Positions 996 to 14,401 of a stretch of 18,783 nt of DNA are shown in pieces. The position numbers and the translations under genes were made by a program. Every line of letters starts with the position of its first letter. The first letter of the stretch is position 1. The notes below the pieces were generated by a model. That model was not told the DNA's origin and did no database searches. It saw only the letters and a list, made by a program, of their open reading frames with translations. The DNA comes from Nitrososphaerales archaeon TH5894 (GTDB taxonomy: Archaea > Thermoproteota > Nitrososphaeria > Nitrososphaerales > Nitrososphaeraceae), in the NCBI GenBank assembly GCA_014523485.1, contig JAATVK010000173.1:1-18783 (forward strand), in the 5' to 3' direction.

Positions 996-1079
996 GCGGG
1001 GGTCGCCTAGCCTGGTAGGGCGTGGGATTGCTAATCCCATGTTCGGAAGAACTCGTGGGTTCGAATCCCACTCCCCGCG
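996..1079 (+). tRNA. tRNA-Ser(GCT)
   Basis: All arms fold by eye. The acceptor stem is GCGGGGG (996-1002) with TCCCCGC (1072-1078), one G-U pair. The anticodon stem is TGGGA/TCCCA around the loop TTGCTAA, anticodon GCT at 1030-1032. A long variable arm with stem GTTC/GAAC and the T arm GTGGG-TTCGAAT-CCCAC follow. The discriminator base at 1079 is G, as expected for serine, and the large variable arm is a serine trait. CCA is not encoded. Length is 84 nt and no intron is seen. It reads AGC/AGU serine codons. A broken integrase starts about 200 nt downstream, and copies of this 3' end recur to 12.87 kb, so it appears to be an integration target. Confidence 0.97.
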
Positions 1080-1284
1080 CTTCAAATGTGGGTTCTACAA
1101 AAACGAATAAGAATAAGCGAACAGATTATGTCTTTAGGACAAACAAAGATAAAAAGGAAATGACTCTCTCTGCAAAAATCACACATACAAATTAATCATT
1201 CTTCTACTTGTACTAATGATATAGAACATTAGAAAGAAGAATAGATTCTATAACAAAGTTATTATCTAAACCATATTTCAATAA

Positions 1285-2345
1285 GATTTTGAAAAGTTAT
1301 CAAAAAAGAATTTAGACAATGCAAATATTATTTGTGACTATATTATTGCAGAACAAACAGAAATAAACATAAAAGATTCAACAAAGGAGGGTAAAATCAA
1401 AATTCTGGTTTGGCTATCAAATCATTTCCAAGATAAAAAAACTTATAGAAATATGACAAAGCATGATGTTCTAGAATATTTAAATACACTTATAAGGTCT
1501 CCTATTGAAGATCCGACACAAAATGGATTGGTAGTTATAATAGGCGACAAATGATTTTAAACAAATTTTTTAAATGGTTATACAATCCCTTTCAATCTGA
1601 TCATAAACAGAAAGAAACTCCTGAATGTATGCAAGGAATAAAAAAACTGTCTAGAAAAAACAATACTTCTTACAAACCTGATGATATTTGGGAATCATGT
1701 GACCATGCTATCTTTTTGAAATATTGTCCACTAAAAAGAGATCGTTGTTATCATGCTATGGCTATAGATATGTCTGCAAGACCTCATGAGATTTTAAATC
1801 TTCGTATTAAGGATATTAAATTCTATGTTAATGACGAAGGAAGTTAGAATTACCAATGGAAAAACTGGTTCCAGAACTGTTCCTTTGATTGACTATCTGC
1901 CATATTTGAAAGAATATTTGTCGTCATCACTATCTTCATCTGATGAAAATCATCATCCAACTAGTTCTAATTCTAATTCGTGGCTTTTTGTCTCTACCGG
2001 AAATAATCATGGTTTTAAATTATCGTACGATGGTTTATCAACTCGCTATGGATACTATAGAAAGAAATATTTTCCATCACTTTTGAGCGATGAAACTATA
2101 CCAAATTCTGATAAAGCATTAATAAAAAATATGCTTACAAGCCTTGGAATCTCTATGTATTTAGACATTCAGCCTTAACAGAAAAGAGTCAATATCTAAC
2201 AGAAGCGGTTTTGAGATCTCATGCTGGATGGACTATGTCTAGTAAAATGCCTCTTTATCTTTTTATATCTAAACATAAAATTGAAAGTATTTTGTTTACC
2301 TATCTTGGAATTATTCTATTCTTGAAGTTCCTAATATTAAACTAA
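1285..2345 (+). pseudogene. Tyrosine recombinase/integrase, multiply frameshifted
   Basis: Three frames must be joined to read one protein. Frame 1 (1285-1521) carries the N-terminal SAM-like domain (NMTKHDVLEYLNTLIRSP) and ends at DPTQ. One base is missing in an A-run near 1521, after which frame 3 continues KWIGSYNRRQMILNKFFKWL to about 1840, with DMSARPHEILNLRIKDI holding the first catalytic Arg. A small net deletion near 1840 moves to frame 1 (EVRITNGKTGSRTVPLI, Lys region). Another one-base loss near 2140 leads to frame 2 with YVFRHSALTEKSQ, LRSHAGW (Arg-His box and third His) and a damaged tail after KMP, where the catalytic Tyr context is altered. No usable start was seen; a stop precedes 1285. 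It is a member of the archaeal XerA/integrase superfamily, now dead, lying just behind tRNA-Ser as integrases of tRNA-targeting elements do. Confidence 0.9.
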
Positions 2346-2713
2346 TAATTTAATTTTTGATGGCTTTTGACTAATTGACAAGAATGACTATAATTTATTA
2401 CAGATGGATCTGTCTCTCTATACAACAACTTTTTTTTAATAATAAAGAAAAATTTTCATTTTTCATTGTTTCCAAAAGGCTTAATATACAAATAAAATAC
2501 TTTCATCAATTTTTTTACAATAGAATTATTAAATAAATTTCTTAATAGTCCTAGTAAATATCTATTTGCTAATAAATATTTTAATATTAAAGGATAGAAC
2601 CCACATCTAGTGGATAAGGGTTCGAGTTCCACTTCCTGCGTTTCGTATGTGATGGAATTTTAAAAAAGAACAAACAGATAGAATTATTATTGATTGAATC
2701 ATTAAAAACTAGG
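2346..2713. other. Intergenic: T-run and tRNA-fragment copy
   Basis: No gene is seen. There is a T8 tract at about 2430-2437, behind the dead integrase, and the first tRNA-3'-end-like copy at 2597-2643 (listed separately). The rest is featureless AT-rich DNA. Confidence 0.6.
2597..2643 (+). repeat. Degenerate tRNA 3'-end copy (att-like) no. 1
   Basis: GGGTTCGAGTTCCACTTCC at 2618-2636 followed by TGCGTTTCG resembles the T arm plus acceptor end of tRNA-Ser (1057-1083), with a few changes. The next bases, TATGTG, also match the ATGTG behind the real tRNA. The preceding GAACCCAC (2598-2605) resembles the 3' side of an anticodon stem of a serine tRNA. No 5' half exists, so it is not a functional tRNA. 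It closes a 1.6-kb stretch holding little but the dead integrase. Confidence 0.6.
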
Positions 2714-3619
2714 TTATTTGAAGAATTCTGAAATATCAGTCTGTCTTGGCTTAGAATATTGTTGTTGTTGTTTATATGTTCTATAATTTTGTTGATTTTC
2801 GTTCCTAAATATTTCAGTAGAAGATAATTTGTAATCTAAAATAGGAAATGATCTTATATGATCTTTCAAATTCATCATATCTGCAAATAACTTTGCAGTC
2901 ATTGGACCAAAACCAGCATAGTGATTGTTTGCAGCGATTATTGCCATCTTCATATCATTTACCTTTCTATCAACATCTTCCAAGATCTTGGACCAGAGTT
3001 CCATTTCTTTTGTTCTGTCTTTATTTATTTTACCGAAGTCTCTTTCATTGATGCTCCTATCTCCTATTAATCTCAAATATACAAAATCAGTAGTTAAAAT
3101 TGGAGGAGTAATAAGAATATCTTGCTGACTCCAGACAAGACAATAGTTTCTTTCTTTAAGAACATTGTAAAAAAGTTCATTGAACCAACTATGATGTCTA
3201 ACCTCTATTGCATATCTAAAAGAAGGATCTAACTGGTAACGTAGATTCTTAATCAAATCTAATCCTTCAGCAATTTGTAAAGATGGAGGTAACTGAATCA
3301 GAAATACAAGTATTTTATCATATAGTTGTTCCATCGTATCATAAAACTGTTCTATATCCTTTTCTACATCTTTAAGATGTTTATCATGAGTTATAACTTT
3401 TGGAAATTTAACAGCAAATTTAAAATTTTCTGGCGTTCTTTTATTCCAGTTGTTAACTATAAACTTGGAAGGTATTTTATAAAAAGTAGAATCAATTTCG
3501 ACAAAATCAAAAATTTTAGAATAGTATGAAAGCCAATATCTATTATCTAGATCTTCTGGGTAAAATGATCCTTTCCATCCATCGTAACTCCATCCAGAAC
3601 ATCCTAGATAATATTCCAA
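2714..3619 (-). CDS. DUF72 (YecE-like) TIM-barrel protein with C-terminal PIP box
   Basis: A full-length 301-aa member of the DUF72 family (PF01904). Family marks are GCSGWSYDGWKGSFYP (6-21), EIDSTFYKIPS (41-51), FAVKFPKVITHDK (68-80), QLPPS (109-113), YAIEVRHHSW (136-145), YLRLIGDR (181-188) and NNHYAGFGPMTAKLF (231-245). The family forms a TIM barrel of unsettled activity; links to nucleic-acid repair have been suggested. The last residues read QTDISEFF then K, a perfect QxxIxxFF PCNA-binding motif (Q293, I296, F299, F300) after a Gln/Lys-rich linker. This suggests tethering to the sliding clamp (inference). The start is TTG at 3619; no ATG lies near, and the family begins at this point. 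A TATA-like element (3651-3660 on the reverse strand) fits a ~10-nt leader. A decayed copy of its start is at 14270-14346. Confidence 0.93.
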   Translation of the reverse strand: MEYYLGCSGWSYDGWKGSFYPEDLDNRYWLSYYSKIFDFVEIDSTFYKIPSKFIVNNWNKRTPENFKFAVKFPKVITHDKHLKDVEKDIEQFYDTMEQLYDKILVFLIQLPPSLQIAEGLDLIKNLRYQLDPSFRYAIEVRHHSWFNELFYNVLKERNYCLVWSQQDILITPPILTTDFVYLRLIGDRSINERDFGKINKDRTKEMELWSKILEDVDRKVNDMKMAIIAANNHYAGFGPMTAKLFADMMNLKDHIRSFPILDYKLSSTEIFRNENQQNYRTYKQQQQYSKPRQTDISEFFK

Positions 3620-3991
3620 TATCTTATTTTATCACTGGAAAGCAAAAACTATTTTAAAAAAATATACTAGTTTTTTGTTCTATATTCTGTAACTATTTTG
3701 AACCTTGTGTGATAAGTGATTAATTTTTTAAAGAAGAGACAATACTCCCTCCATTTTTAGAATTGCTTCTATAAATTACAAATGCGTTAGCAAATCTAGT
3801 AATTTAAAAATTCTAGATGGTTTAAGGATTCACAAATACTTGATTAATATTTTATTAGAAGAAAAGTTGAACTGTGATTAATTTTCTGAATTTGCTTGAT
3901 GCAGATAAAATTTAGATAGATAGAGAGAGATAGATTATTTCATCTGAGAAATTCTATAACCTATAAGTATGAAGAATTTTGATAAACTAAC
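3620..3991. other. Divergent intergenic region, DUF72/DoxX
   Basis: No gene is seen. It holds the promoters of the two divergent genes: TATA-like bases near 3651-3660 for the reverse strand and tataagta at 3962-3969 for DoxX. A short GATA/GAGA-type simple repeat lies at 3910-3934. Confidence 0.5.
3962..3969 (+). promoter_or_regulatory. TATA box of the DoxX gene
   Basis: tataagta is centred about 27 nt before the ATG at 3992, the spacing expected for an archaeal promoter whose transcript starts at or next to the start codon (leaderless). Confidence 0.5.
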
Positions 3992-4453
3992 ATGTTACAA
4001 TCTAAAATAATAGAATTTGCACCACTTCCTCTTAGAATAATAGCAGGTGTAGGATTTATGATACATGGTCTTCCAAAAATCCTCGACATTGGAAAAACTC
4101 AAGGTTCCTTTATGAATATGGGTTTACCTCAAGACTTGGCTATCTTGATAGGACTATTAGAATTCATTGGCGGTTTGGTTATTTTGTTAGGTTTCTTAAC
4201 AAGAATTGCGGCAGGATTACTAGCAATAGAAATGATAGGTGCTATTCTATTAGTGAAATTGTCAAAGGGGTTTATTGATGGGTTCGAATTAGATTTATTG
4301 TATCTTGCTATAATGATAAGTTTGTTGATAACTGGACCTGGATTTTTGTCTATAGAAAGAAATCTTCTTAAAAGAGAAATGTTCCCAAAATCACCTAAAT
4401 ATTCAACATCATCATCAACAACAACAACACCAAATGACAAAGAAAACAGATAG
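3992..4453 (+). CDS. DoxX family membrane protein
   Basis: 153 residues with four predicted membrane helices: about 12-30 (PLRIIAGVGFMIHGLPKIL), 47-65 (LAILIGLLEFIGGLVILLG), 68-90 (RIAAGLLAIEMIGAILLVKL) and 101-121 (LLYLAIMISLLITGPGFLSI). The opening LPLRI-GxxF-hHGLPKI, the central G-E--GGL-LLLGFLTR-AA and the closing L--L--GPG--S-- are DoxX family signatures (PF07681). The family sits in the cytoplasmic membrane. Some members accompany thiosulfate:quinone oxidoreductase or redox stress systems, but the role of this one is not shown by context. The tail is a hydrophilic Ser/Thr-rich stretch. The ATG fits a leaderless start behind the TATA box. Convergent or operon partners are absent, since 950 nt without genes follow. 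Confidence 0.92.
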   Translation: MLQSKIIEFAPLPLRIIAGVGFMIHGLPKILDIGKTQGSFMNMGLPQDLAILIGLLEFIGGLVILLGFLTRIAAGLLAIEMIGAILLVKLSKGFIDGFELDLLYLAIMISLLITGPGFLSIERNLLKREMFPKSPKYSTSSSTTTTPNDKENR

Positions 4454-4656
4454 AGAAATATAACGAAACAAGATAGGAAATAATTTTATTCTCTTGTTTG
4501 AATTTCTTTGAATACTTTCTTTTTCTTAGATAATCGTTTATGGCTTCAACCATCGGATCAATTAATCTTTAATTATTATTGCTAAGTGTTTCAGATCTCC
4601 ATAATTGCCTTTGGTAACCTAATAGATTAACCATTTGAAAAGTTGAATCAAACTGA

Positions 4657-4746
4657 GACAGGAGGAAAGCAAGCAATATATGGTGCAAAATCTTAGATAG
4701 ACAATCGGATGTAAAGTAGGTAGGCTCGCCGTTCCCCTACTTTTAA
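4657..4746 (+). ncRNA. Putative structured RNA element, copy 1
   Basis: A stretch alignable with 7923-8018. Shared blocks are CAGGAG, AGCAAG.AATA, GGT..AAAATC, TTAGATAGACA and AAAGTAGG...CTCG, in the same order and spacing. Copy 1 ends in a hairpin AAAGTAGG/CCTACTTT (4713-4720 with 4736-4743) followed by a short T-run, as for a terminator. Upstream, both copies also share TAGATTAA and Asn/Gln-codon-like AACCAA bases. No ORF is conserved between them, so a non-coding RNA or a decayed small repeat are the two readings. Strand is judged from the terminator-like end. Confidence 0.45.
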
Positions 4747-5096
4747 GAATGTCAAGAAAGATAATTTAATACATGATGATTTACTCGCATAACTTTATCG
4801 AAAAATATGAAGAATCATCTAACGTATTCCAGATCCTGTGATTTGACTGAATTCTCTTTAAATTAAAGAATAATATTATAATTTTACAATCTAATTTAGC
4901 AATACTATGTTAGCAAGTGTTGCTAAGAACTTAAAGATAAAGATAGTTTTTACTTAGAATGTTATAGTTAATTATTTATTTTTTATAAATTAATTAATTA
5001 CGTGAGTGAAATAATTATTATTCAATTCTCCAAAAGATAGTTTCACAAGTCATAAATATTTCAGTAGACAGATACCATCACCTATCGTCACCCACC

Positions 5097-5153
5097 GTCA
5101 TCGTCTGAATGTATATCTCTAAACCAATTCACCAAATTTGTTCAGGCTATGAC
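5097..5153 (+). repeat. CTATG-family hairpin A1
   Basis: Left arm GTCATCGTCTGAA (5097-5109) pairs with TTCAGGCTATGAC (5141-5153), 12 of 13 positions including one G-U, loop about 31 nt. The right arm and its flank (TTTGTTCA.GCTAT.ACAATTAAT) recur at 6396-6418 (hairpin A2), and less fully at 7103-7118. Confidence 0.6.
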
Positions 5154-5245
5154 AATTAATAAAATTATCTCAAATTTTTAAATAATATGTTTGGCAAAAT
5201 CAAATACAAACAAAACAAACAAAAAGTACAGGCAATTTCGTACTA

Positions 5246-5293
5246 TCATAGCCTCCTTTCTATTATTGTAATTTATCATTAGAAGGCTATGGC
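5246..5293 (+). repeat. CTATG-family hairpin B1 with T-run
   Basis: CATAGCCTCCT (5247-5257) pairs with AGAAGGCTATG (5281-5291) and is followed by GCTTTTTAA, so it looks like a terminator for a transcript from the left. It lies 112 nt before the 5405 gene and belongs to the same family as hairpins at 6519, 6683 and 7207. Confidence 0.6.
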
Positions 5294-5376
5294 TTTTTAA
5301 AATAAGTTATTGAATTTTGTTATCATCATCATCAATATGCAATTTCTGAATATGTTCTAAATAAGTAGTATAATTA

Positions 5377-5384
5377 TTATATAT
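5377..5384 (+). promoter_or_regulatory. TATA box of the 5405 gene
   Basis: ttatatat is centred about 25 nt before ATG 5405, so the mRNA is probably leaderless. The box, the following ATATTTAAC and the first codons are nearly the same as at 8507-8545, showing that the two promoters share an origin. Confidence 0.6.
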
Positions 5385-5404
5385 GATATTTAACAATAAT
5401 TGAT

Positions 5405-5824
5405 ATGGAATCAAAAAACTATGCAATAGCAATTTCGTTAATTCTTGCATTTGTTTTAATTACAGCAACAACAACAGGAATACCAACAACATCATTTAAA
5501 AATGTGTTAGCACAAGTCGAAAATGGTAGTTTACAAGATGAGAACATAGGAATGTCTCAAGAAGGAATGTCTCAAGATCAAACTAGTGAAAGTGAATCTA
5601 CAGCATTTAATCCAGAAGAAATTATCAAAAAAGAAGCAAGGGGACTAGGAGATGCTGACCTTGGGGAAGTTCAAGAAGTTACAGGAGAATTCATAGTAAC
5701 ACAAAAAGGTACTGTAGACAAAGATGTATTCTATATTCCTACAAATTTAGTAGACCATTTTGATGGCAGTACTGTCTTTTTTACGGTAACTGAAGAAGAA
5801 GCAAAACAATACAAAAGGGATTAA
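5405..5824 (+). CDS. Secreted protein with PRC-barrel-like domain
   Basis: 139 residues. Residues 1-36 are a signal peptide: short charged start MESKNY, hydrophobic core AIAISLILAFVLIT, and a probable cut after VLA-36. A polar linker (37-72) with GMSQ motifs follows, then a compact domain (73-139) with GLGDADLGEVQEV, GEFIVTQKG, KDVFYIPTNLVDHFDG and TVFFTVTEEEA. That layout (strand, strand, 'YIP..LV..FDG', 'F.VTEEEA') resembles PRC-barrel/DUF2171-type small beta domains. It should act outside the membrane; a ligand is not evident. The promoter and signal-peptide DNA are shared with the gene at 8536, which carries a different mature part. I am confident about secretion and less sure about the domain name. 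Confidence 0.8.
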   Translation: MESKNYAIAISLILAFVLITATTTGIPTTSFKNVLAQVENGSLQDENIGMSQEGMSQDQTSESESTAFNPEEIIKKEARGLGDADLGEVQEVTGEFIVTQKGTVDKDVFYIPTNLVDHFDGSTVFFTVTEEEAKQYKRD

Positions 5825-6015
5825 ATTTTATTAAAAATTAATTCATTTTTATTTAACTATAGGATTATAATTTAATTTCTAACGACAATTTATTAAAATA
5901 TTAGAAAATAATAATTATCTATACAATGGAAAATATTCTTATTCATAATCTATTTGTAGATATTGTAAAATGTTATAACTTAATTTGTTAAATATTTTGT
6001 CGTCAAATATTATTT

Positions 6016-6336
6016 ATGGAAAATATTATTGAAAGTTTTGCAGAAAGATTAGGAATTGAACCTAATGTTGCAAGACAAAGTATTTCAATAACATGTCGAT
6101 ATTTTATTCTAAATTCAGAACCAATCAAAGCAACAGGTCTTTTATCAATGCTACCATCAAGTTTAACAAATTTGTTTTCTACTGATGAGAAAAACGAAAG
6201 CAAGACAAATCTAGAAAATATTCCTCCGGAGGAAGTTATTGAGAAAATATCGAATGAATGCTTTAACGGTGATAAACAAAAAGGAAAAAAGGTATATGAA
6301 GAAGCAATAAAACTAATTAAAAGTAAAATCTGGTAA
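6016..6336 (+). CDS. Hypothetical small helical protein, 106 aa
   Basis: A soluble, helix-rich protein without signal peptide. The first half (ESFAERLGIEPNVARQSISI... ILNSEPIKATGLLSMLPSSL) has the rhythm of small bacterial DUF2267/DUF2780-like proteins, in which a helix is followed by a 'LP..L..L' turn; this similarity is weak and by eye only. The second half (PPEEVIEKISNECFNGDKQKGKKVYEEAIKLIKSKIW) is amphipathic helix with basic residues. A TATA-like element ttaaatatt (5988-5996) lies 24 nt before the ATG, consistent with a leaderless mRNA. The 12-nt start ATGGAAAATATT also appears at 5926, where the frame is short. The function is unknown. Confidence 0.75.
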   Translation: MENIIESFAERLGIEPNVARQSISITCRYFILNSEPIKATGLLSMLPSSLTNLFSTDEKNESKTNLENIPPEEVIEKISNECFNGDKQKGKKVYEEAIKLIKSKIW

Positions 6337-6350
6337 AAAACAAATTTTTT

Positions 6351-6412
6351 TCATAGTCTAGATATGCTAATCCTATACACCAAATCATCATGTAGTTTGT
6401 TCATGCTATAAC
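6351..6412 (+). repeat. CTATG-family hairpin A2 behind the 6016 gene
   Basis: TCATAGTCTAGA (6351-6362) faces GTTCATGCTATAAC (6399-6412); pairing is partial. It begins 15 nt after the stop codon at 6336, directly behind a T-run (6345-6351). The right arm and downstream ACAATTAAT match hairpin A1. Confidence 0.5.
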
Positions 6413-6518
6413 AATTAATTTGTCTTCAAGTCTTATATAGTATAATTAACAGATTTCTATACTTGAATTGGATCGTCATCCATTCAGTCCAAAGAAAGAA
6501 AGATTCACACAAACCCTG

Positions 6519-6586
6519 CCATAGCCTTCTAAATTCGCTCCTACTACATTCTACTTCTTGTACCAAAGAAGAGTAGAAGGCTATGG
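6519..6586 (+). repeat. CTATG-family hairpin B2
   Basis: A perfect 12-bp stem: CCATAGCCTTCT (6519-6530) with AGAAGGCTATGG (6575-6586). Inside it a second stem can form between CTACTTCTT (6551-6559) and AAGAAGAGTAG (6567-6577). The sequence after it (ATTATCTCCAATTCTTATATAG) matches the flank behind hairpins A1 and A2. Confidence 0.7.
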
Positions 6587-6682
6587 TTTGAATAAATTAT
6601 CTCCAATTCTTATATAGAATATTAGTAATTTATTTACACCTATAATAGGATAGGAAATAAAAACAAAACACCTTCAATAATT

Positions 6683-6728
6683 CCATAGCCTTCTATTATT
6701 GATAGTCCTTGATAGTAGTAGGTTATGG
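6683..6728 (+). repeat. CTATG-family hairpin B2' with T-run
   Basis: CCATAGCCTTCTA (6683-6695) pairs with TAGTAGGTTATGG (6716-6728) with one G-U and one mismatch, followed by six T. It lies 97 nt after hairpin B2 and 79 nt before the 6807 gene. Confidence 0.6.
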
Positions 6729-6806
6729 TTTTTTAATCGTTCTGAAGAATTAGAACCAAATATTTATTAACAAGGTTTTTGATCGGAAAAGACAGATTAT
6801 ACGAGA

Positions 6807-6992
6807 ATGAGTAACACCATAAAAGAAGAACAATGTTATTACGCAACTTATGTCAATTCAATGGGTCATCCAGCAGAGAAGGAATGTTCTAACCCTGCTA
6901 CAAGACATGTTGAAAATAAGAATACTTCGCAAAGTTTTCCTGTGTGTGAAGAACACTATCAACTCGTATCAAAAAAGCAAACAGAATCATAA
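6807..6992 (+). CDS. Small Cys/His protein, putative zinc-binding, 61 aa
   Basis: 61 residues with C10, H21, C27, H34, C47 and H50; the end FPVCEEHYQ carries C-x2-H, and ECSNPATRHVE sits in the middle. The order Cys ... Cys ... CxxH resembles short treble-clef or 'C..C..C..H' zinc modules that read incoming small-ligand or RNA sites, but I do not recognise a named family. It is cytosolic, with no signal peptide. A TATA-like tatttatta (6761-6769) is centred about 42 nt upstream, which would leave a leader of about 16 nt without a strong ribosome site. It stands alone between CTATG-family hairpins. Zinc binding is inferred from residue spacing only. Confidence 0.7.
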   Translation: MSNTIKEEQCYYATYVNSMGHPAEKECSNPATRHVENKNTSQSFPVCEEHYQLVSKKQTES

Positions 6993-7056
6993 TTGCAAAC
7001 TCCTAAATTATACTATCATTGGGTATTAATTACACTTCATAGGAAAACAAGTCATA

Positions 7057-7116
7057 TTGTCATAGTCTGGACTTGACAACAACGTTGCTTGCAGCAGTAT
7101 CTTCAGGCTATGACAA
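7057..7116 (+). repeat. CTATG-family hairpin A3
   Basis: TTGTCATAGTCTGGA (7057-7071) pairs with the reverse-complementary bases ending TTCAGGCTATGACAA (7102-7116); all 15 positions pair if two G-U pairs are allowed. The loop is about 30 nt. It is the best A-type hairpin and lies 64 nt behind the 6807 gene. Confidence 0.7.
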
Positions 7117-7206
7117 TTTTATAAATATGAATAAAAATATCAAATTATTATATATTATATTGGACAGATATTAAACACCACTCTATCAAGAAAAATATCC
7201 ATAGCA

Positions 7207-7274
7207 GCCATAGCCTTTCTTTCTATCTAGGTCATTGTTCCTTTATGATAGTAGTAGTAGTAGTAGGCTATGGC
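7207..7274 (+). repeat. CTATG-family hairpin B3
   Basis: GCCATAGCCT (7207-7216) pairs perfectly with AGGCTATGGC (7265-7274). The loop contains a (TAG)n simple repeat (about 7249-7265). It lies 91 nt after A3 and 116 nt before the cupredoxin gene. Confidence 0.65.
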
Positions 7275-7359
7275 ATTTAACTTCTAAAAAATGGTTGTGG
7301 TTGTTGAAATCTTGCCACAATTATTTTAAAGTAAGAGTTAAATTAATTAGATAGAATTT

Positions 7360-7369
7360 CTTATAAATT
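7360..7369 (+). promoter_or_regulatory. TATA box of the cupredoxin gene
   Basis: cttataaatt is centred about 25 nt before ATG 7390, implying a leaderless mRNA. TTATAAATT followed by CTTCAC and ATGAAAATTTTT recurs at 9222-9252, so this gene and the 9241 gene share promoter ancestry. Confidence 0.6.
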
Positions 7370-7389
7370 AGACTTCACCATCACATGCA

Positions 7390-7773
7390 ATGAAAATTTT
7401 TATTTCAAGTTTGATTATAGTAATGACAAGTATAATACTAGTCATTGGGTTTTTATTGAATCCAACAACAATGACAACAACTATACCTGTCTTTTCTCAA
7501 ATGGATTCAGTATATATAACACCTGGAGCAGCCGATCCAAACAATGACCAATCATTTGTACCTCAATTTATCAGCATGCCAATAAAAAGTATGGTTTCTT
7601 GGACAAACGATGATTCAATACAACACACTGTAACTTCAGATGAAGAAGGACTGTTTGACTCAGGTCCAATACCTCCAGGAAGGGTATGGGATAATGCATT
7701 TGATTCTCCAGGAGAATTTGGCTATCATTGTGCAATCCATCCATGGATGACAGGTAGAGTTATGGTTGGCTAA
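7390..7773 (+). CDS. Secreted amicyanin/plastocyanin-like type 1 copper protein
   Basis: 127 residues. A signal peptide covers about 1-36 (hydrophobic IFISSLIIVMTSIILVIGFL, then TIPVFSQ). The remainder is a cupredoxin: MVSWTNDDSIQHTVTSD with copper ligand H79, then DSPGEFGYHC-x2-H-x2-M with C114, H117 and M120, ending GRVMVG. The C-x2-H-x2-M spacing is that of amicyanin, tighter than in plastocyanin (C-x2-H-x4-M). It should bind one copper ion and shuttle electrons outside the cytoplasmic membrane. Such proteins are plentiful in ammonia-oxidising archaea, where copper carriers replace cytochrome c. No lipobox is seen, so it is either free or held by an uncleaved signal. It is monocistronic with its own TATA box. 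Confidence 0.95.
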   Translation: MKIFISSLIIVMTSIILVIGFLLNPTTMTTTIPVFSQMDSVYITPGAADPNNDQSFVPQFISMPIKSMVSWTNDDSIQHTVTSDEEGLFDSGPIPPGRVWDNAFDSPGEFGYHCAIHPWMTGRVMVG

Positions 7774-7922
7774 TCAATCTTTTATTATTAATAAAAATCC
7801 TATTTATTTTTTCACAATAAACATCTATCAATTAATTATTTGTTGAAGAAAATTTAATTGTCTAGATTAATTTCTTTAACAATTTATGAACCAACAGCAG
7901 CAGGATATACAGGCAGGATATA

Positions 7923-8018
7923 CACAGGAGAGCAAGAAATACACGGTATAAAATCATTAGATAGACATTCTAGGTTGGAAAGTAGGCTCGAGTTTAGGGA
8001 ACTAGGTACCTAAACTTT
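7923..8018 (+). ncRNA. Putative structured RNA element, copy 2
   Basis: Paralogous with 4657-4746 (see that entry for the shared blocks). Here the end is a different hairpin, AGTTTAGG (7991-7998) with CCTAAACT (8009-8016), containing the perfect palindrome TAGGTACCTA (8003-8012). Stem bases differ from copy 1 while a stem at this place is kept. It sits between the cupredoxin gene and the convergent gene ending at 8034, so the hairpin could also terminate both. A short tandem duplication (CAGGATATACAGG type) precedes it at 7901-7927. Confidence 0.45.
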
Positions 8019-8033
8019 GTATCCATTACTTAA

Positions 8034-8363
8034 TTACAAATTAGAAGTTAAATTACTGGTTAATTTTTTTGTCTCACTAAATATTATCTGGGCTACATAA
8101 TCATCTATTCCTAATATTGCTGCAATATGGGAAGGTCCATTCTCTAATATTCTTTCAACCGTAAAACCAGCATCCTGTAAAATCTCAATCAATCCTTTTG
8201 AAATTTCTACGAGTTCTAATCTTTCATCTTTTACATGTGTTATAGTTGGTGATGACAATTGTGAAGGTAATGATAATGGAAAATCTTTTGTTGTAAATAT
8301 TATGGGTTTAGTCGTCTTTTCCTCAATCATTAGTTGATCGTCACTATCAAAATTGCCCTCCAT
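8034..8363 (-). CDS. Small helix-hairpin-helix-type protein, 109 aa
   Basis: I start the gene at ATG 8363 (MEGNFDSDD); a longer reading from TTG 8384 adds only seven hydrophobic residues and is unlikely. A TATA-like ttaaatata on the reverse strand (about 8388-8396) then fits a leaderless mRNA. The first half is acidic and disordered. The second half, KGLIEILQDAGFTVERILE then NGPSHIAAILGIDDYVAQII, matches the paired helices of the RadA N-terminal/HHH_5 fold (L-x-x-AGF-T-x-x-I-L, then I-A-x-I-L-GI). Such folds bind DNA backbone or proteins. There is no catalytic domain, so an adaptor or small DNA-binding role is inferred. It converges on RNA element copy 2. Confidence 0.7.
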   Translation of the reverse strand: MEGNFDSDDQLMIEEKTTKPIIFTTKDFPLSLPSQLSSPTITHVKDERLELVEISKGLIEILQDAGFTVERILENGPSHIAAILGIDDYVAQIIFSETKKLTSNLTSNL

Positions 8364-8506
8364 AATAATAATAAATATAAACAAAGTTATATTTAAGAGA
8401 TCTATATTTTCTATTTAGATAGCAATAGTAATAGTAATGCACTTATTTCACTAATAAAGATTGTATAGAGACAAATATCTTGACATATAGATTATTTCTC
8501 TAATCA

Positions 8507-8515
8507 TTATATATA
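8507..8515 (+). promoter_or_regulatory. TATA box of the 8536 gene
   Basis: ttatatata lies 25 nt before ATG 8536. Together with the next bases (ATATTTAAC) it matches the promoter at 5377-5393. Confidence 0.6.
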
Positions 8516-8535
8516 ATATTTAACTAAAAGTGATA

Positions 8536-8790
8536 ATGGAATCAAAAATTTATTCAATAGTAATTTCCTCATCAATTCTTGTATTTGCTTTAATTGCAGC
8601 AGGAATATCAACACCAGCATTTGCACAAGAGGATGATACAGGAATGACACAAGGTGAAGATATGGGTGATATGAATGGAGATATGGGTGGTATGAACCAA
8701 AGTCAAGGAAATGATACCGGAATGGTTCAAGGTCAATCTAATGAAGCAAAGAATGATGGAAATAACGAAGAAGAAGGAGACGACGAGTAA
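8536..8790 (+). CDS. Secreted Met/Asp/Gly-rich small protein, 84 aa
   Basis: ATG 8536 is chosen over GTG 8530, because it matches the start of the paralogous gene at 5405 and the TATA spacing. Residues 1-30 are a signal peptide ending STPAFA, cut before QEDD. The 54-residue mature part is low-complexity: D, E, G, N and Q with six Met (M37, M43, M46, M50, M53, M63) in patterns such as GDMNGDMGGM, then an acidic tail (EEEGDDE). It has no Cys and no fold. The signal peptide and GM(S/T/V)Q motifs are shared with the 5405 protein, but the PRC-like domain is absent. Met-rich spacing recalls copper-binding segments of exported metal proteins; this is inference from composition alone. Confidence 0.75.
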   Translation: MESKIYSIVISSSILVFALIAAGISTPAFAQEDDTGMTQGEDMGDMNGDMGGMNQSQGNDTGMVQGQSNEAKNDGNNEEEGDDE

Positions 8791-9240
8791 AATATAGAAT
8801 TTTAAACAATTCTCTTTAACATTTTTAATCTTTATTTATTTTTTTGATTGCATCTCATCTTCCCAGATAACAGTCAATTTATTAGACAAGTTAGCAATAA
8901 CATCCATCATCATCTTCTTTCATTTTGTCGATAGTTGACAGTAGAAACCCCATGTGATGAATAAGGGTTCGAATCCAACTCATCTTTTTAGATAACTCTG
9001 ATGAGAATTCTCCTTATCTCAATTAAACAATTGAAAACAGATTTGCATTAAGATTCTTGAATTAATGTTTTATAACTATTATATCGATAATGAAATTTTA
9101 TTTTAATAATTTAGTAAATATAAATAATAAAAAATATTATTCTGTAGCAATTACTAATAAAATATTGTAGAAATTTTATTCTTTTAATTTTTTAAAAAAT
9201 TTATTTTATTTAATATAATATTTATAAATTGCTTCACAAT
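8791..9240. other. Intergenic with tRNA-fragment copy
   Basis: No gene is seen. A T-run (8837-8843) follows the 8536 gene. A tRNA-T-arm copy is listed at 8949-8981. From 9050 to 9240 the DNA is almost entirely A and T, including the promoter of the next gene (taatataata at 9211-9220, about 25 nt before ATG 9241). Confidence 0.5.
8949..8981 (+). repeat. Degenerate tRNA 3'-end copy (att-like) no. 2
   Basis: GGGTTCGAATCC at 8965-8976 is the T-arm core, preceded by CCCCATGTGATGAATAA, like the preceding parts of the copies at 2597 and 9930. The acceptor part after it is changed (AACTC). No 5' half exists. Confidence 0.5.
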
Positions 9241-9720
9241 ATGAAAATTTTTGTCATATCAAGTTTACTAATACTATTATTACTTTCATCTACATTCTTG
9301 CTACCTTCTTTAACTCCAGTTAAAGGACAAGAAAGCATTACTATCAATTGTTCATTTGAAAATGCCAAATTGACTAAAATAGGTCATTCTCTTGAAGAAG
9401 ATAGAGAAGAAATGAGAGAAAATTATAAACGATATGGTGATTCTGCATTAAATGCTTTAAACCCATTATCTGAAGAAATGGCAAAAATAATTAAAACAAA
9501 TTTAGAAACAGAAATTCTTATGGAAAAAGTAAAAACAGATCCAAGTATAGAATATACAAATTGTTCTCATCTTGATGCTGTTGAAATAGAATTAATTACT
9601 ACATTAAAACAAGGTGAAGACGAATGGAATCGATATTGGAATAATCAAGAAGCGGATTTCGGTAAAAATGAAACCAAACAGATAAAGGAATACATTAAAT
9701 TACATATTCATAATGAATAA
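9241..9720 (+). CDS. Secreted hypothetical protein, 159 aa
   Basis: ATG 9241 is preferred to the TTG at 9229: it begins a typical signal peptide (MKIFVISSLLILLLLSS, cut about VKG-29) and matches the first codons of the cupredoxin gene at DNA level. The mature part is helical and charged, with C37 and C108 as the only cysteines, possibly a disulfide outside the cell. Helix stretches include SLEEDREEMRENYKRYGDSA and TLKQGEDEWNRYWNNQ. There are no known motifs, and I do not recognise a family. It is expected to be an extracytoplasmic helical-bundle protein. A run of tRNA-fragment copies begins 70 nt after it. Confidence 0.75.
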   Translation: MKIFVISSLLILLLLSSTFLLPSLTPVKGQESITINCSFENAKLTKIGHSLEEDREEMRENYKRYGDSALNALNPLSEEMAKIIKTNLETEILMEKVKTDPSIEYTNCSHLDAVEIELITTLKQGEDEWNRYWNNQEADFGKNETKQIKEYIKLHIHNE

Positions 9721-9790
9721 GATGAATAAATATTAATCGTAAATCTTAAATTATAATACATGAAGTCTCAACAATCAAGACATCGAACCG

Positions 9791-9809
9791 AAGTTTCGAA
9801 TCCCATCCC
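9791..9809 (+). repeat. Degenerate tRNA 3'-end copy (att-like) no. 3
   Basis: AAGTTTCGAATCCCATCCC resembles the T loop, T stem and acceptor start of tRNA-Ser. The preceding GAAGTCT block (9762-9768) is shared with the copy at about 12700. Pairing of the T stem is lost, so this is a remnant. Confidence 0.45.
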
Positions 9810-9914
9810 ATCCACACTAATCGTATTTTTTAAAATAATAAAGCAACATTATTAAATTGAATATCTATTATAATATCAGTTTTTAATTGTATATACCACT
9901 AATATAGAAACAAT

Positions 9915-9963
9915 AAATTATAAAAACAAGAACCCCAAGTGTACCTTATGGGTTCGAATCCCA
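9915..9963 (+). repeat. ~50-nt direct repeat with tRNA T arm, left copy
   Basis: The 49 nt here match 12806-12855 with one base change and one missing C. The last 15 nt (9949-9963, TGGGTTCGAATCCCA) are identical to the T arm of the tRNA-Ser gene. Beyond 9963 the two copies part: the acceptor-like end is kept only in the right copy. Together with the right copy it brackets the segment 9964-12805. Confidence 0.85.
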
Positions 9964-10013
9964 ATCCGAATTCATTTATTTAATATCCATTCTAATTATT
10001 TGAAATAGTTAGT

Positions 10014-10682
10014 TTATGGAAGTATAGTAAAACTAAATGGTTGAACTACTTGACCTTTTAATGATGTTGCCTTTAGAAAACCTTCTGGTTTGACTTCTAT
10101 ACTATATGATAAAATGGCAGTTCCATTTGTTTCCCCCTCCGCCACGGCTTTATATTGTTTACCTGTTCCACTACTTTCTTGAACTGTAACTTTATCTCCT
10201 AGTTCTAGTACTGTTGGTAAAACTCTATTCATACATTGTGGAACTATTATTTCTTCTACGTTATTATAAAAGTTTGTAGAGAAATCAGAATTACAATTTC
10301 CTGCAATAATTGTTACATTAAATGGTAATGTATTTACTACAGTAGCATTTACCTCAAATATGCCACCTACTTTAACTTGATTTGGAACAGTAATTATATT
10401 TTCCAGTTTAACACCAGTAACTAATTCATTTACTAAATCATTTAGTGTTGGAATTGCTAAAGTTGTTTGTGTTTTTGGAACTTCTTTGATTTCTTTGGAA
10501 GGACTAAAATTTAACCATTTTTGTAAAAATGATTCTTTTTCTTGTTGCGAAGAAAAATTTAAAGATGTTTGATAATTACTACTATTTTTTAAATTTTGTT
10601 GCTCTGCAAACAAAGAATGAGTATATGTATTAAAAATTACTAAAACAATTGATAACAAAATGACTAGAAAAAAATAATTCAT
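10014..10682 (-). CDS. Secreted beta-sandwich-like hypothetical protein, 222 aa
   Basis: A signal peptide is at 1-26 (FFLVILLSIVLVIF ... HSLFA). A Ser/Asn/Gln/Lys linker runs to about residue 95. The rest has strand-like alternation: VKVGGIFEVNATVVNTLPF, NVTIIAGNC, TVLELGDKVTVQ, YKAVAEGETNGTAILSYSIEV and FSFTILP. This is typical of an Ig-like extracellular domain, with two cysteines (C130, C150) able to bond. No enzyme motif is present. A TATA box (ctatataag on the forward strand at 10705-10713) is centred 27 nt before the ATG, so the mRNA is leaderless. It lies downstream of the 420-aa secreted gene on the same strand but with its own promoter, inside the direct-repeat-bounded segment. The function is unknown. 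Confidence 0.75.
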   Translation of the reverse strand: MNYFFLVILLSIVLVIFNTYTHSLFAEQQNLKNSSNYQTSLNFSSQQEKESFLQKWLNFSPSKEIKEVPKTQTTLAIPTLNDLVNELVTGVKLENIITVPNQVKVGGIFEVNATVVNTLPFNVTIIAGNCNSDFSTNFYNNVEEIIVPQCMNRVLPTVLELGDKVTVQESSGTGKQYKAVAEGETNGTAILSYSIEVKPEGFLKATSLKGQVVQPFSFTILP

Positions 10683-10704
10683 TAAAATATCTCAATTAAA
10701 GTTA

Positions 10705-10713
10705 CTATATAAG
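10705..10713 (-). promoter_or_regulatory. TATA box of the 222-aa secreted protein gene
   Basis: Read on the reverse strand as cttatatag, centred about 27 nt upstream of the ATG at 10682. Confidence 0.6.
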
Positions 10714-10830
10714 CATATAGATATTATGGACTAATATGATGTATAAAAAATTTATTTTAGTGGATAATTATGTCAAGTAACATAGTTAATCAAATAATAT
10801 GTAATTAGTATATAAGATTCAATTGTACAG

Positions 10831-12093
10831 TTATGGTGTGAACGTTCTAAAGACACCACCCTCTTCCAATTGTTTAATTTGTATACCATCTTCATGCTGC
10901 ACCGAATCTACTCCATAAACTCCGTCACTATTAGAACGTGCGCTAATATATAATTTAATTCCATTATGTTCACCTAGATAAAACCCAGTATGACCTCCAT
11001 TAGACCATACATCACCCATTTGAGGATTATTTACAACAACAAAATGTGGAATGGTTTTCTTTGTATCGCCCCAATGTCCTGCTTGATATGGAAAATATTT
11101 TCCTGGTGCTTGCTCGGCCTCAATAACTGGAAAAGTTATTCCAGTAGCAAGAAATATTACTTCTGCAACATAGGCATTACATTTATTCTGACTAGAAGGA
11201 ACAGTCACATAACATGGTGCAGACATATCTAGATCGTTTTCACCTAATGGATCTAAATTCCATTCACCCCATTTATTACCGGGGTCTTCTATCCATAATC
11301 TTAATGATTCTAATGTTATTTTTAATGGTATGGACATAGTCTCACTGTGACTCGCAGCATCCAATCCTTGACGGTAAAATTTGTTTGAAAATTCATTTAT
11401 TGCATTGGCAAATTCAACATCATCTTTAATTGATATTAATTCTGATGCCACTGCTGCACCCTTCAAATCATTTAACTTATCGGAAATCTGATGAATTAAT
11501 TTGGTTAGTTCCTTGAAATCGTAAATCTTGCTATGTAGAACACAACCTTCTAGATCAAGATCATCCATCTGACCATCCGCATCATTATCAATATTATCGC
11601 CACAGATATCTGCTATAGATACCCCTCCTTCATCAGTATCAGTTACTGCATTTTCTGAACTTGCAACATCTTCAGGTGTAGCTATCTCTCCTTCTTCTCC
11701 TGTTGCTGTTGTTGTTCCATCTTCAGCCCCTACTTCTCCTGTTGCTGGAACACAGCCTTCTAGATCAAGATCATCCATCTGACCATCCGCATCATTATCA
11801 ATATTATCGCCACAGATATCTGCTATAGATACTCCTCCTTCATCAATTACTGAATTTTCTGGCTCTATACCACTATCTTCAGGTGCAGACACCTCTCCTT
11901 CCTGGAATTCCTGAGCATACACGTCCTGATTAGATAAAACCTGTGCTCCTATTACCCCTACCAGTAACATAATCATAATATTACTACAAAATAATTTAGA
12001 AAACAAATTTAGTCTAAAAAAATGTTCTTTACTCCTGCTATCTATTTCTGTTACAATGTCATGAGATTTTATTTTACTATATCTATGATGCAA
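10831..12093 (-). CDS. Secreted protein: two MopE-like acidic repeats plus NlpC/P60-like domain
   Basis: 420 residues from TTG 12093; ATG at residue 40 is an alternative. A hydrophobic stretch (38-60, MIMLLVGVIGAQVLS ... VYAQ) is the export signal, with an unusually long 37-residue front if TTG is used. Residues 84-115 and 154-185 are identical repeats, CGDNIDNDADGQMDD-type, with the DNxxDNDxDGxxD spacing of the MopE/thrombospondin-3-like metal-binding motif and flanking Cys. A helical stretch (190-270) leads to the C-terminal domain (290-420). C305 in NKCNAYVAEV, GDVW (360-363) and H368 in GGHTGFYLG match the NlpC/P60-CHAP order of nucleophile Cys and His; the third residue is unclear. The family usually cuts peptidoglycan amides or peptides. 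It divides into a calcium- or copper-binding stalk and a likely extracellular hydrolase. The substrate is unknown. Confidence 0.82.
   Translation of the reverse strand: MHHRYSKIKSHDIVTEIDSRSKEHFFRLNLFSKLFCSNIMIMLLVGVIGAQVLSNQDVYAQEFQEGEVSAPEDSGIEPENSVIDEGGVSIADICGDNIDNDADGQMDDLDLEGCVPATGEVGAEDGTTTATGEEGEIATPEDVASSENAVTDTDEGGVSIADICGDNIDNDADGQMDDLDLEGCVLHSKIYDFKELTKLIHQISDKLNDLKGAAVASELISIKDDVEFANAINEFSNKFYRQGLDAASHSETMSIPLKITLESLRLWIEDPGNKWGEWNLDPLGENDLDMSAPCYVTVPSSQNKCNAYVAEVIFLATGITFPVIEAEQAPGKYFPYQAGHWGDTKKTIPHFVVVNNPQMGDVWSNGGHTGFYLGEHNGIKLYISARSNSDGVYGVDSVQHEDGIQIKQLEEGGVFRTFTP
11538..11635 (-). repeat. In-gene repeat, copy nearer the C terminus
   Basis: 98 nt repeated at 11748-11845, exactly 210 nt (70 codons) away, with two differences. 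It encodes the acidic DxDNDxDG motif. Near-identity at silent positions points to a recent duplication or ongoing conversion. Confidence 0.9.
11748..11845 (-). repeat. In-gene repeat, copy nearer the N terminus
   Basis: Partner of 11538-11635; only two of 98 nt differ, neither changing the core motif. Confidence 0.9.
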
Positions 12094-12140
12094 AATGTTT
12101 GCTCATTAAAGTGAAGTCCTCCTCTTTTATTTAAGAATAT

Positions 12141-12479
12141 TTGATCTTACATAACCTGAAATATGTTAGCATTGCGTGGATATATAGATATAAGAAAAAT
12201 AAACGGAGATACATCGTTACTACAACTGAAAAAGGAGACGAAATCTGTAACCGATTATTAATTGAACTGATCACCTTTGCGAAACTTTCAGATATTGCTC
12301 CAAAATTATTAGAGCCAAATCTTTCAATCGAGCACTACAAAGTATCAAAAGGTATAAGAAGTGCTTTTCTCAGAGAAAATGCAAATCTACACATGGTAGC
12401 CGAAAGACTAACTGATAATATTTTAGAAATCAATTCTCATTTTAATGATGAGATCAAGGGTATCGATGATGAGCTATAA
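12141..12479 (+). pseudogene. Winged-helix regulator, probably 5'-truncated
   Basis: The ORF of 112 aa begins only with TTG 12141. The part YKKNKRRYIVTTTEKGDEICNRLL is the wing plus last helix of an archaeal winged-helix regulator, normally preceded by some 50 residues with helix-turn-helix. Here that part is replaced by the short stretch MILHNLKYVSIAWIYR, which has no such fold, in DNA also used by the divergent 420-aa gene. The remaining helix (ELITFAKLSDIAPKLLEPN, then long helix to the end) looks intact. I call it a remnant. Alternatively it is a short protein that uses only the dimer helix. It lies just inside the right copy of the 50-nt direct repeat. Confidence 0.5.
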
Positions 12480-12689
12480 TTCAATTACATTTAATACAAA
12501 TAAAATATGGAACGGATTGTCTTAGAGAATCAAAGATTATTTAGGGTATTTTTGTTTTAGACTTAAACAAAACTTTAACAAAGATTTCTATTTATTTATT
12601 ATTAAATAGTTTCTTGTATTAAAGCTATTTGTCATATAAATAAATTGAAATCAAAAAATAATATATTTAAATTGGATAGAGAAAATCAA

Positions 12690-12715
12690 TGAAGTCTTCC
12701 AATCCCAATCCCCTC
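12690..12715 (+). repeat. Degenerate tRNA 3'-end copy (att-like) no. 4
   Basis: ATGAAGTCTTCCAATCCC then AATCCCCTCC resembles the T-loop to acceptor end of tRNA-Ser and shares the ATGAAGTCT start with 9760-9768. It is short and weak; its place before the strong copy at 12806 mirrors the pair at 9791/9915. Confidence 0.35.
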
Positions 12716-12805
12716 CATAACAATTCAGGATTTCTAATCATATAAGTAAAATAGTGACTCATATGTATTTGTCTTGAAAGTTTACATTTACTATTATTGT
12801 TAATT

Positions 12806-12867
12806 AAATTATAAAAATAAGAACCCCCAAGTGTACCTTATGGGTTCGAATCCCACTCCCCGTGCTT
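12806..12867 (+). repeat. tRNA-Ser 3'-end copy (attR-like) and right direct repeat
   Basis: Bases 12841-12862 are identical to 22 nt of tRNA-Ser(GCT) at 1056-1077, covering the T arm and most of the acceptor strand; the next five bases (TGCTT) differ at one position from the tRNA flank (CGCTT). Bases 12806-12855 repeat 9915-9963. No tRNA 5' half precedes it, so it is not a gene but the kind of partial copy left at the far end of an element inserted in a tRNA. Confidence 0.85.
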
Positions 12868-13017
12868 ATCTTGGAATTTCCTATACAAATGTTATAAGAT
12901 TTAATACGATACTTAGCCTTAGATAAACAAGAGAAAAAAGAAGGAGGAGATGAATGATATTTTACTCCTATACAGAAAACAATTCATTATAGATTTTGAC
13001 TTAAATAGAAATGATGT

Positions 13018-13335
13018 ATGATTATTGCTCTTTCAAATAGTTATGAGATAATTCAATATTTGCATATGGTATCAAATGATAAAAATATATACTTATCAGA
13101 TAAAATTTTTGCAGATGAGAATATCATGTTTGGAACATTGAAAATTAAGTTCCTATTAATCATTGGTGTATGCTCTGGAAGTCCTAGAAACCAAAAGACA
13201 ATATCTCAAAAGGTGGAAGGTTGTTTTTGATCTCACTCCCCATCTTCTCATACCTATAACAAAAAAACCAATATTTGTACAAAGTGTGGCGTGAAATTAA
13301 ATTATTATCAGCATGTATATCTTTTATATTTTTAA
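13018..13335 (+). pseudogene. Small Cys-rich protein remnant with in-frame stop
   Basis: A 70-aa frame (13018-13230) ends at TGA 13228, but the same frame continues without another stop to TAA 13333. That extension reads SHSPSSHTYNKKTNICTKCG then VKL, with a C-x2-C knuckle preceded by His residues, as in zinc ribbons. The break therefore seems to split one small zinc-type gene. The first 50 residues have no recognisable domain and may be unrelated. GATCTCACTCCCC (13231-13243) looks faintly like another tRNA end, but is inside this frame. The call is tentative. Confidence 0.3.
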
Positions 13336-13743
13336 AAACCTTTCTAAAAATATTAATTAGGTCATAAATTTCATGAAAATTATGATGATTTATTAACGTA
13401 GACTAATTTATTATTTATTTAAGGTAATAGGGCAGTATGATCATAATAATATTGACATTCATAACAAATTTATTTTTTCGTTACTATGAGCTTTTTTCTA
13501 ACTATCAAGTTTAACAAATATGTTTTCAAAGAATGAAAAACAAGAATTTAAGGTTGCCAACATAATTTACAATAATTAGTCAATCTAATAATAAGAAAAA
13601 TCTAGTCAAAAGTAAATAATTTTCCTTTTTGAGCAAGACATGGCTTTTACTAATTAAGTTAAAATTCAGTCGAACTCAGTAATTAATAAAATATTTTGGG
13701 ATTATTAAGGATAAAGATAATAAGTTAAAAAACAATCAAAGAT
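13336..13743. other. Intergenic, nothing recognised
   Basis: No ORF, RNA fold or repeat stands out. A T-run (13481-13487) and AT-rich DNA before the next gene are all that is seen. Confidence 0.5.
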
Positions 13744-14004
13744 ATGGATGAAAATTTAACTGAAAGAAAAAAAAGATTAGAGAAAGAATTGGATAGTAAA
13801 GTATCCAATGATTATCAAGAATTCATAAACAAATCAAATGATTTTTTACAACAATCACGAGAAAATACTAAAAAATATTATCAAGATTTACTTTCTAGAG
13901 AATTAGATTCAATGGAAAATGCTATAAAATCTGGAAGTACATTACAAGCAATGAGTCATAGGCTAACAGCAAATGTTTATGAATCAATTCTTCAGAATAC
14001 ATAG
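13744..14004 (+). CDS. Small coiled-coil hypothetical protein, 86 aa
   Basis: Charged and fully helical: LTERKKRLEKELDSKVSNDY, then FINKSNDFLQQSRENTKKYY, DLLSRELDSMENAIKSG, and a last helix LQAMSHRLTANVYESIL. Heptad spacing of Leu, Val and Phe suggests a coiled coil or small helical bundle. There is no signal peptide and no cysteines. The ATG is the only good start, and a clear TATA element is not seen. No named family is recognised. It is flanked by gene-poor DNA on both sides. A structural or adaptor role is possible, but nothing in the context supports a specific one. Confidence 0.65.
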   Translation: MDENLTERKKRLEKELDSKVSNDYQEFINKSNDFLQQSRENTKKYYQDLLSRELDSMENAIKSGSTLQAMSHRLTANVYESILQNT

Positions 14005-14111
14005 CCAGCATGTGATTTTATATATATAATAATAACTCGGATTTTAAGAGTTCTCTGATTTTATGTTTATAATCAAAGATTAGTTTTTTAATACATGATT
14101 CAATTAACCAG

Positions 14112-14243: not shown

Positions 14244-14255
14244 ATAAGCAAAAAA

Positions 14256-14346: not shown

Positions 14347-14401
14347 TTTCTACAACTAATTTTTAATAGTTATTAAGATTTCAAAGGATACTTTGAAATA
14401 G

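Follow-up and report, generated by a model that had tools for sequence, protein, structure and literature searches.

The question raised by this locus is what a row of truncated tRNA copies behind one intact tRNA gene stands for. The window, that is the whole stretch of 18,783 nt analyzed here, is contig C117 of the archaeal metagenome-assembled genome (MAG) G000 (2.36 Mb, 87.5% complete), in which ARAGORN and Rfam found a sole tRNA, a tRNA-Ser(GCT) at 996–1080 on the + strand with its T-arm core at 1057–1070. A first-pass annotation had reported six same-strand tRNA 3' fragments behind this gene and read them as traces of a nested integration hot spot. We find that the window is probably a decayed, tRNA-anchored gene-cassette array and a member of a family of such arrays built by integrases acting on T arms, and the fragments look, from their sequence, like attachment sites and not only like tRNA debris.

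When scored against the 24-nt 3' end of the tRNA-Ser(GCT) (GGGTTCGAATCCCACTCCCCGCGC), the six fragments, all on the + strand, matched at 19 (2618), 17 (8965), 16 (9792), 18 (9950), 17 (12694) and 23 (12842) of the 24 positions, thereby bearing out the row as first described, and the stretch 12841–12862 is indeed identical to the tRNA over 22 nt. In 100 dinucleotide shuffles searched on both strands, a mean of 1.09 positions (maximum 4) reached at least 14 and the top match was 16; five of the six fragments thus exceeded every shuffle, with 9792 only equalling the best one, in agreement with the fragments not being T-loop matches at chance frequency. Beyond the tRNA and the fragments a score of 14 was also seen at 11249 (+), 13222 (+) and 6063 (−), and the minus strand within the tRNA reached 14 at 1036. 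Upstream bases common to two copies had been likened to the anticodon side of a different serine tRNA. When the whole MAG was searched with 12806–12870, the GC-rich upstream sequence turned up only at the two window copies and at no tRNA of this 87.5% complete genome, other matches being AT-rich stretches of 14–18 nt; that reading is therefore not supported, and the bases instead form an arm.

Read beside the fragments of relatives, the sites follow the grammar AACCC-N15-GGGTTC with the remaining T arm thereafter. Four of the window fragments carry an upstream arm at a fixed distance from the core, the core being the T arm, and such arms, 20 nt in length, stand where the 5' half of a tRNA would be and fall into classes A, B, C, D, E, G, H and I. 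We trained a position weight matrix (PWM) of arm plus core on 49 sites, including the four of the window, all on the + strand. These are 2592–2643 (class B right arm, core at 2618–2631 and a degenerate tRNA 3' end; PWM score 38.7, R1 E-value 9.4e-6), 8939–8978 (class B arm with core at 8965; 34.5), 9924–9967 (class A arm with core at 9950; 42.2, R1 E-value 4.1e-7) and 12816–12867 (class A arm, core and a near-complete Ser(GCT) 3' end, 23/24; 55.0). Scanning of 69 loci (710 kb) from six genomes of one genus gave 118 sites in 60 of the loci, 48 of them training sites, with none in reversed sequence and none inside an ARAGORN tRNA, and an arm class could be given to 106; the loci having been fetched for model, pattern, tRNA or integrase matches, these site densities are not genome averages. 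Whole-genome model searches (E ≤ 0.05, at most 150 candidates per genome being scored across the genus) gave at least 106 matches in total, spread over all six genus genomes, with 19 of them in G000. A stricter family-wide search (E ≤ 0.001) had matches in 25 of 70 genomes and in none of the 18 genomes of genus g18. Ten further stretches were scanned at threshold 9, the reversed control giving zero, and one of them (L230) held an oppositely oriented pair with scores of 10.5 and 50.1. The single-contig genome G025 (genus g2) has four same-strand sites at about 77.7–84.9 kb and three more same-strand sites (scores 10–33) 6.6–9.5 kb behind a tRNA-Val(TAC), and a cluster of three sites lies in the single-contig G026.

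The sites form directional rows, with the same strand used in 57 of the 58 neighbouring pairs within 15 kb. The sole opposite-strand pair, at 7545(+) and 7639(−) of L148, is 94 nt apart. Intervals between same-strand neighbours number 57, with a median length of 1,397 nt; ten of them measure 66–166 nt and lack open reading frames (ORFs) of at least 80 aa, and the 46 of at least 400 nt (median 2,187) hold none in 7 cases, one in 12, two in 13 and three or more in 14. ORF orientation is unbiased, 47 being in the direction of the site and 51 opposite to it, and the cargo is diverse (93 Pfam families over 98 scanned ORFs, no family in more than two ORFs, with 25 families listed). Neighbouring sites had equal arm classes in 16 of 47 pairs and different ones in 31, the pairs in this comparison as well as in the junction and dN/dS (nonsynonymous to synonymous substitution rates) comparisons below not being independent. 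Arms of classes A and B coexist with tRNA-Val-like cores in one row, and in this sense the earlier suggestion of more than one donor stands, although not in its form of another serine tRNA.

In alignments between genomes, 93 instances at the sites ended within 45 nt of the core and 4 ran through, whereas random points in the same contigs gave ends in 32% (maximum of 200 draws 53%) and random intergenic points in 51% (maximum 74%). Among all 463 alignment ends, 56 lay within 45 nt of a core, with 3.5% expected. In an earlier pair comparison, seven pairs with both sides the same were overlapping neighbours on one contig. The later site-pair test, using 300-nt halves, different contigs only and at least one homologous side, found 38 pairs sharing the upstream side only, 27 the downstream side only and none both, whereas gene-end controls shared both sides in 13 of 73 and 20 of 75 pairs. 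The window cassette at 8965–9950 recurs in genome G002 (locus L077) between different neighbours: from its head at 8965 and the L077 head at 3717 the two are 75–100% identical per 20 nt downstream of the core, the arms upstream being of class B and class A, respectively. Conversely, one tail found in L070, L142 and L146, from three genomes, stays 85–100% identical per 20 nt as far as the core, past which three different sequences follow. At one compared core locus the identity to relatives was 88–96% (G003, G001, G002 and G005) or 77% (G004), and lost similarity alone is therefore an unlikely cause of the alignment ends.

Directly behind the tRNA of the window lies, as had been noticed, a dead tyrosine integrase (1229–2315, +), recognized through tblastn pieces to the L082 integrase (42% identity in the longest) and interrupted by 9 stops in 1234–2142. 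Of 28 loci with integrases, 16 have a same-strand T-arm core no more than 260 nt ahead of the point where the integrase similarity begins. In ten of these the core is that of an ARAGORN tRNA, namely Ser(GCT), Val(TAC), Arg(CCT), Thr(GGT) or Ser(GGA), in five it is of the Ser(CGA) type and in one it belongs to an array site. We had considered L070, L082 and L083 as 5'-less tRNA-Ser genes and rejected this, as inspection by eye shows tRNA-Ser(CGA) genes, each with a 5' exon and two introns, which ARAGORN missed at about 7400, 9640 and 9412, respectively. The stop-free relatives in L073, L075, L076 and L082 have open frames of 509–517 codons, possibly partly within the tRNA, with PF00589 above the cut-off in L082 and L075 and just below it in L073 (26.8 versus 27.1); matches to recomb_XerA_Arch were weak (27 bits versus a cut-off of 220). 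Loci with related integrases bear the labels Nitrosocosmicus, Nitrososphaerales or Nitrososphaeraceae, plasmid and phage records gave five distant archaeal integrases of at most 27.6% identity, and within G000 itself the search returned broken or distant copies only.

The tRNA-side end may bear an inverted copy of the right arm. Of 75 comparisons 11 were significant, all with a register offset of 0, and 9 of 19 left ends scored 15–18 of 22 for their assigned class, as compared with 5000 random places for which the 99.9% level was 15 and the maximum 17. In the window this left, integrase-side arm lies at 1081–1098 (+) and matches the inverted class B right arm at 17 of 22 with offset 0. Further class B mirror arms were seen in L067, L070, L071 and L082, a class C arm behind tRNA-Val(TAC) in L191, and class D arms in L199 and L210, there following Ser(CGA), as well as in L137, there at an array site.

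Relatives hold the tRNA-Ser(GCT) in the same upstream context, with a conserved downstream flank of an IF-1A and a His_biosynth gene. The distance from tRNA to flank is about 2.1 kb in G011, 16.5 kb in the window and 33 kb in G004, supporting the proposed hot spot with repeated insertions. The annotation had further predicted a relative with the tRNA end joined to 12862/12863, and such a joint exists: in G011 sequence resembling window 12863–12936 follows immediately on the tRNA 3' end, and in G001 sequence resembling 12863–12897 does. The joint could not be upheld as a virgin empty site, since mirrored-arm-like sequence is found there together with, in G011, an N-terminal integrase remnant (47.5% over residues 37–76); in G001 the element end is present and the integrase remnant absent. 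With that remnant following it in G011, the joint reads instead as the left end of an older element, and the window sequence at 12863–12936 (+), whose counterpart these local alignments place directly behind the tRNA in G011 and, over a shorter length, in G001, looks like the left end of an older integrase element. The window region 1080–12840 is not the single outer element that had been proposed; it comprises at least four site-bounded units. A possible decayed outermost core at 13222–13245 (+, 14/24) may be the oldest right end; 1000 shuffles of its 500-nt stretch gave a best match of 10.9 on average (95% level 12), and over the whole window its score is unexceptional, being equalled at two other places outside the tRNA and fragments. 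Synteny with contig C8 of G003 starts only near 13330 and continues in pieces over 13330–18783, with the IF-1A and His_biosynth genes at the end. The His_biosynth ORF at 18100–18573 (157 aa) spans profile positions 118–226 of 228, and its G011 counterpart has 272 aa.

In the mechanism that we propose, a tyrosine integrase encoded directly behind a tRNA 3' end would recombine DNA within the T arm, the full site being a T-arm core (GGGTTCGARTCCC) between two inverted arms at fixed distance. Right arm and core would be left at the far end of every inserted unit, and integrase-bearing elements would restore the tRNA 3' end on entry, with short integrase-less units having right arm and core being inserted, exchanged and lost at internal sites, presumably in trans and by way of a putative circular intermediate. 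Such insertion and exchange would yield same-strand cassette rows in which the sites are junctions of unrelated neighbours, and units with the arm classes of Ser(GCT), Ser(CGA) and Val(TAC) could share a row since many tRNAs have this T-arm core in common. The row in the window is probably sessile or dormant unless served in trans, because its integrase is dead and the other copies in the 87.5% complete MAG are broken or distant.

A plainer history would be tandem accretion, in which complete elements entered the same tRNA serially and lost their integrase and most genes, like cis-mobilizable elements (CIMEs), so that the fragments would be right attachment sites (attR) and no cassettes would have been exchanged. 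Archaea are known to have arrays that arose by repeated use of a single integration site, according to the passages on them in PMC6563490, and this history would also fit the integrases behind several tRNAs and the dead ones next to the tRNA and, in L137, inside an interval. It would, however, hardly leave integrase similarity in just one of 57 intervals, that of L137, nor neighbouring arm classes that are mostly unlike, nor the window cassette between different neighbours in L077. In only 49 of the 118 sites, moreover, is the core followed by sequence that agrees with one of three tRNA 3' ends at 7 or more of 10 bases. When cassette genes were compared with homologues on other contigs, dN/dS came out under 0.5 in 49 of the 60 comparisons for which it was defined (two others being undefined), many with high dS. 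For these reasons we regard accretion alone as unlikely, albeit as an account with some claim to attention. Far less probable is that arm plus core make up a dispersed repeat or hairpin, and that the breakpoints arose where copies recombined homologously or the assembly broke between them. The motif does occur repeatedly, and of the six genus genomes five are in at least 220 contigs, but its orientation is near-uniform, it is anchored at tRNAs, it has mirrored arms and it forms clusters in genomes of a single contig or in long contigs (G025, G026 and G004); repeats of about 40 nt are also poor substrates for homologous recombination. That the T-arm matches would be chance or codon-driven T-loop look-alikes is hardly credible at all, with 9792 alone tying with the best shuffle, against the outcome of the shuffles and reversed controls, which disfavours it for the armed sites, and with only 5 of the 118 sites inside ORFs of at least 80 aa.

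Several observations nevertheless weigh against an exchanging cassette array. Gene-end controls in these contigs were frequently discordant too, which implies that the islands are restless in general, the sites nonetheless being extreme. Between the window and G002 the common cassette shows 91.6% identity over 813 nt, close to the divergence of the core locus (93% over 686 nt), so that relocation is implied and not recent transfer. Where two sites have the downstream side in common, the arm tends to be shared as well (0.72 versus 0.53 in random pairs), and crossovers were not resolvable inside the conserved core. Triples with same-site presence and absence of one cassette between two genomes numbered zero, and neither an excised circle nor strain-level movement was seen. 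As for the mirror arms, those of class A are weak (12–14 of 22, random DNA reaching 17), those of classes C, D and E overlap with scores of 17–18 for several and are poorly separable, and L076 (class E) and L192 (class G) score 15 without other support for the class. Past the tRNA and the first bases, L068 and L071 show no integrase similarity despite an end of the mirror-arm type, 12 of the 28 integrase loci have no recognized T-arm core upstream, and viral contigs held neither of the two arm patterns searched for.

The row in the window consists of a 6.3-kb unit at 2632–8964 (+) with seven ORFs of at least 80 aa, including a DUF72 gene (2714–3619) and a DoxX-like gene (3992–4453) with the others unassigned, the single-gene cassette at 8965–9949 (+) with its ORF at 9229–9720, and a 2.9-kb unit at 9950–12841 (+) with three ORFs (10014–10682 and 10831–12093 on the − strand, 12141–12479 on the + strand). 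The gene at 9229–9720 gave a dN/dS of 0.73 towards L077 at low divergence, and only one of ten window ORFs matched PHROGs, in a family of unknown function. A 127-aa ORF at 7390–7773 is cupredoxin-like by eye, its Copper-bind and Cupredoxin_1 Pfam matches lying under the curated cut-offs, and the 420-aa ORF at 10831–12093 has a duplicated acidic stretch (ADICGDNIDNDADGQMDDLDLEGC twice). Flank sequence downstream in G001 and G003 (L068 8135–8579; L174 5389–5491) is partly similar to the DUF72 gene, and further relatives of this gene lie in the Ser(GCT) region of G006 and close to the Val(TAC) array of G004. A family of proteins of about 450 aa, membrane-like by eye and 24–79% identical, recurs among the array contigs, at L077 1027–2376, L134 4383–5723 and L126 309–1616 and in L149, L150, L153 and L145.

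The two remaining fragments of the window are armless core remnants, each about 150 nt ahead of an armed site, with a similar unit in L077. One is tRNA-Val-like (9791–9811, +; 16/24) and, by alignment of these units, starts a gene-free mini-unit; the other (12690–12715, +; 17/24 at 12694) precedes the site at 12816–12867. Mini-units of about 80–170 nt, from a Val-like or similar core to an armed site, recur in several genomes, some being alignable, at window 9792–9950 and 12694–12842, L077 6310–6150, L134 3324–3452 and L118 2179–2096. In some unit heads CCCAATCCGAGAAT, or sequence near it, replaces the tRNA 3' end (L120 186, L119 1605, L126 128, L128 5000, L134 6814 and L124 11145), and such a unit could thus not restore a tRNA.

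How, finally, do these rows relate to known systems? CIMEs are units bounded by attachment sites and without recombinase genes, and what sets the present rows apart from CIMEs and their accretion is that several arm classes share a row and that gene-free mini-units occur. In the open-frame loci the integrase gene lies whole beside the left attachment site (attL), as with those archaeal tRNA-targeting tyrosine integrases whose gene is not split on integration. Integron sites of the attC type carry a GTTRRRY box, where the core position here holds C and not a purine in 107 of the 118 sites, and integron cassette ORFs mostly have one orientation. With integrons, including archaeal ones as described in the passages on them in Ghaly 2022 (PMC9668308), the rows share integrase-less cassettes, a site at the cassette end and an integrase at one end; integrons use IntI and attC, however, whereas the array here has T-arm-derived sites, a tRNA anchor and unbiased ORF orientation. 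Thaumarchaeal integrated elements (Krupovic 2019, PMC6563490) share the phylum and the tRNA 3' targets, intron-containing tRNAs among them, and are described in the passages of that paper as discrete elements, unlike the cassette rows seen here. The same paper states that mobile integrons were, among the bacterial classes of elements, undetected in archaea and that thaumarchaeal counterparts could not be ruled out; archaeal integrons with IntI and attC were reported thereafter (PMC9668308).

Closer in form are the additive flexible genomic islands with tRNA direct repeats of the bacterial 'Ca. Actinomarinales' (PMC7771536) and 'Ca. Methylopumilus' (PMC10872708), the passages on which describe a tRNA anchor, cassettes or variable islands and repeated tRNA pieces. 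Here, too, the anchor tRNA has an integrase behind it (dead in the window), units are bounded by tRNA 3' direct repeats, and content at the tRNA-Ser(GCT) locus varies among relatives, whereas arms, site classes and an integrase family behind the tRNA are features of the present rows that those passages do not describe. The likeness to tycheposons, in the passages of PMC10872708, is limited to a tRNA and a tyrosine recombinase with cargo. Such arrays in Nitrososphaerales were not described among the literature matches listed, in a search outside of which subscription papers and preprints largely fell. Tentatively, and with clearly more doubt than attaches to the window itself, Nitrososphaeraceae may own an independently built integron-like system, in which several integrase classes would insert and excise as well as shuffle short cassettes without an integrase at mirrored-arm T-arm sites, in common rows, with tRNA-Ser and tRNA-Val genes as capture platforms. 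If true, widespread soil archaea would gain a defined route to acquire and swap small adaptive genes, the simple motif would make their cassette pool searchable, and a tRNA-derived counterpart of integrons would be at hand for asking how cassette systems arise from ordinary tRNA integrases. While related additive islands with tRNA repeats are known in bacteria, the archaeal, multi-class and mirror-armed form is the new part.

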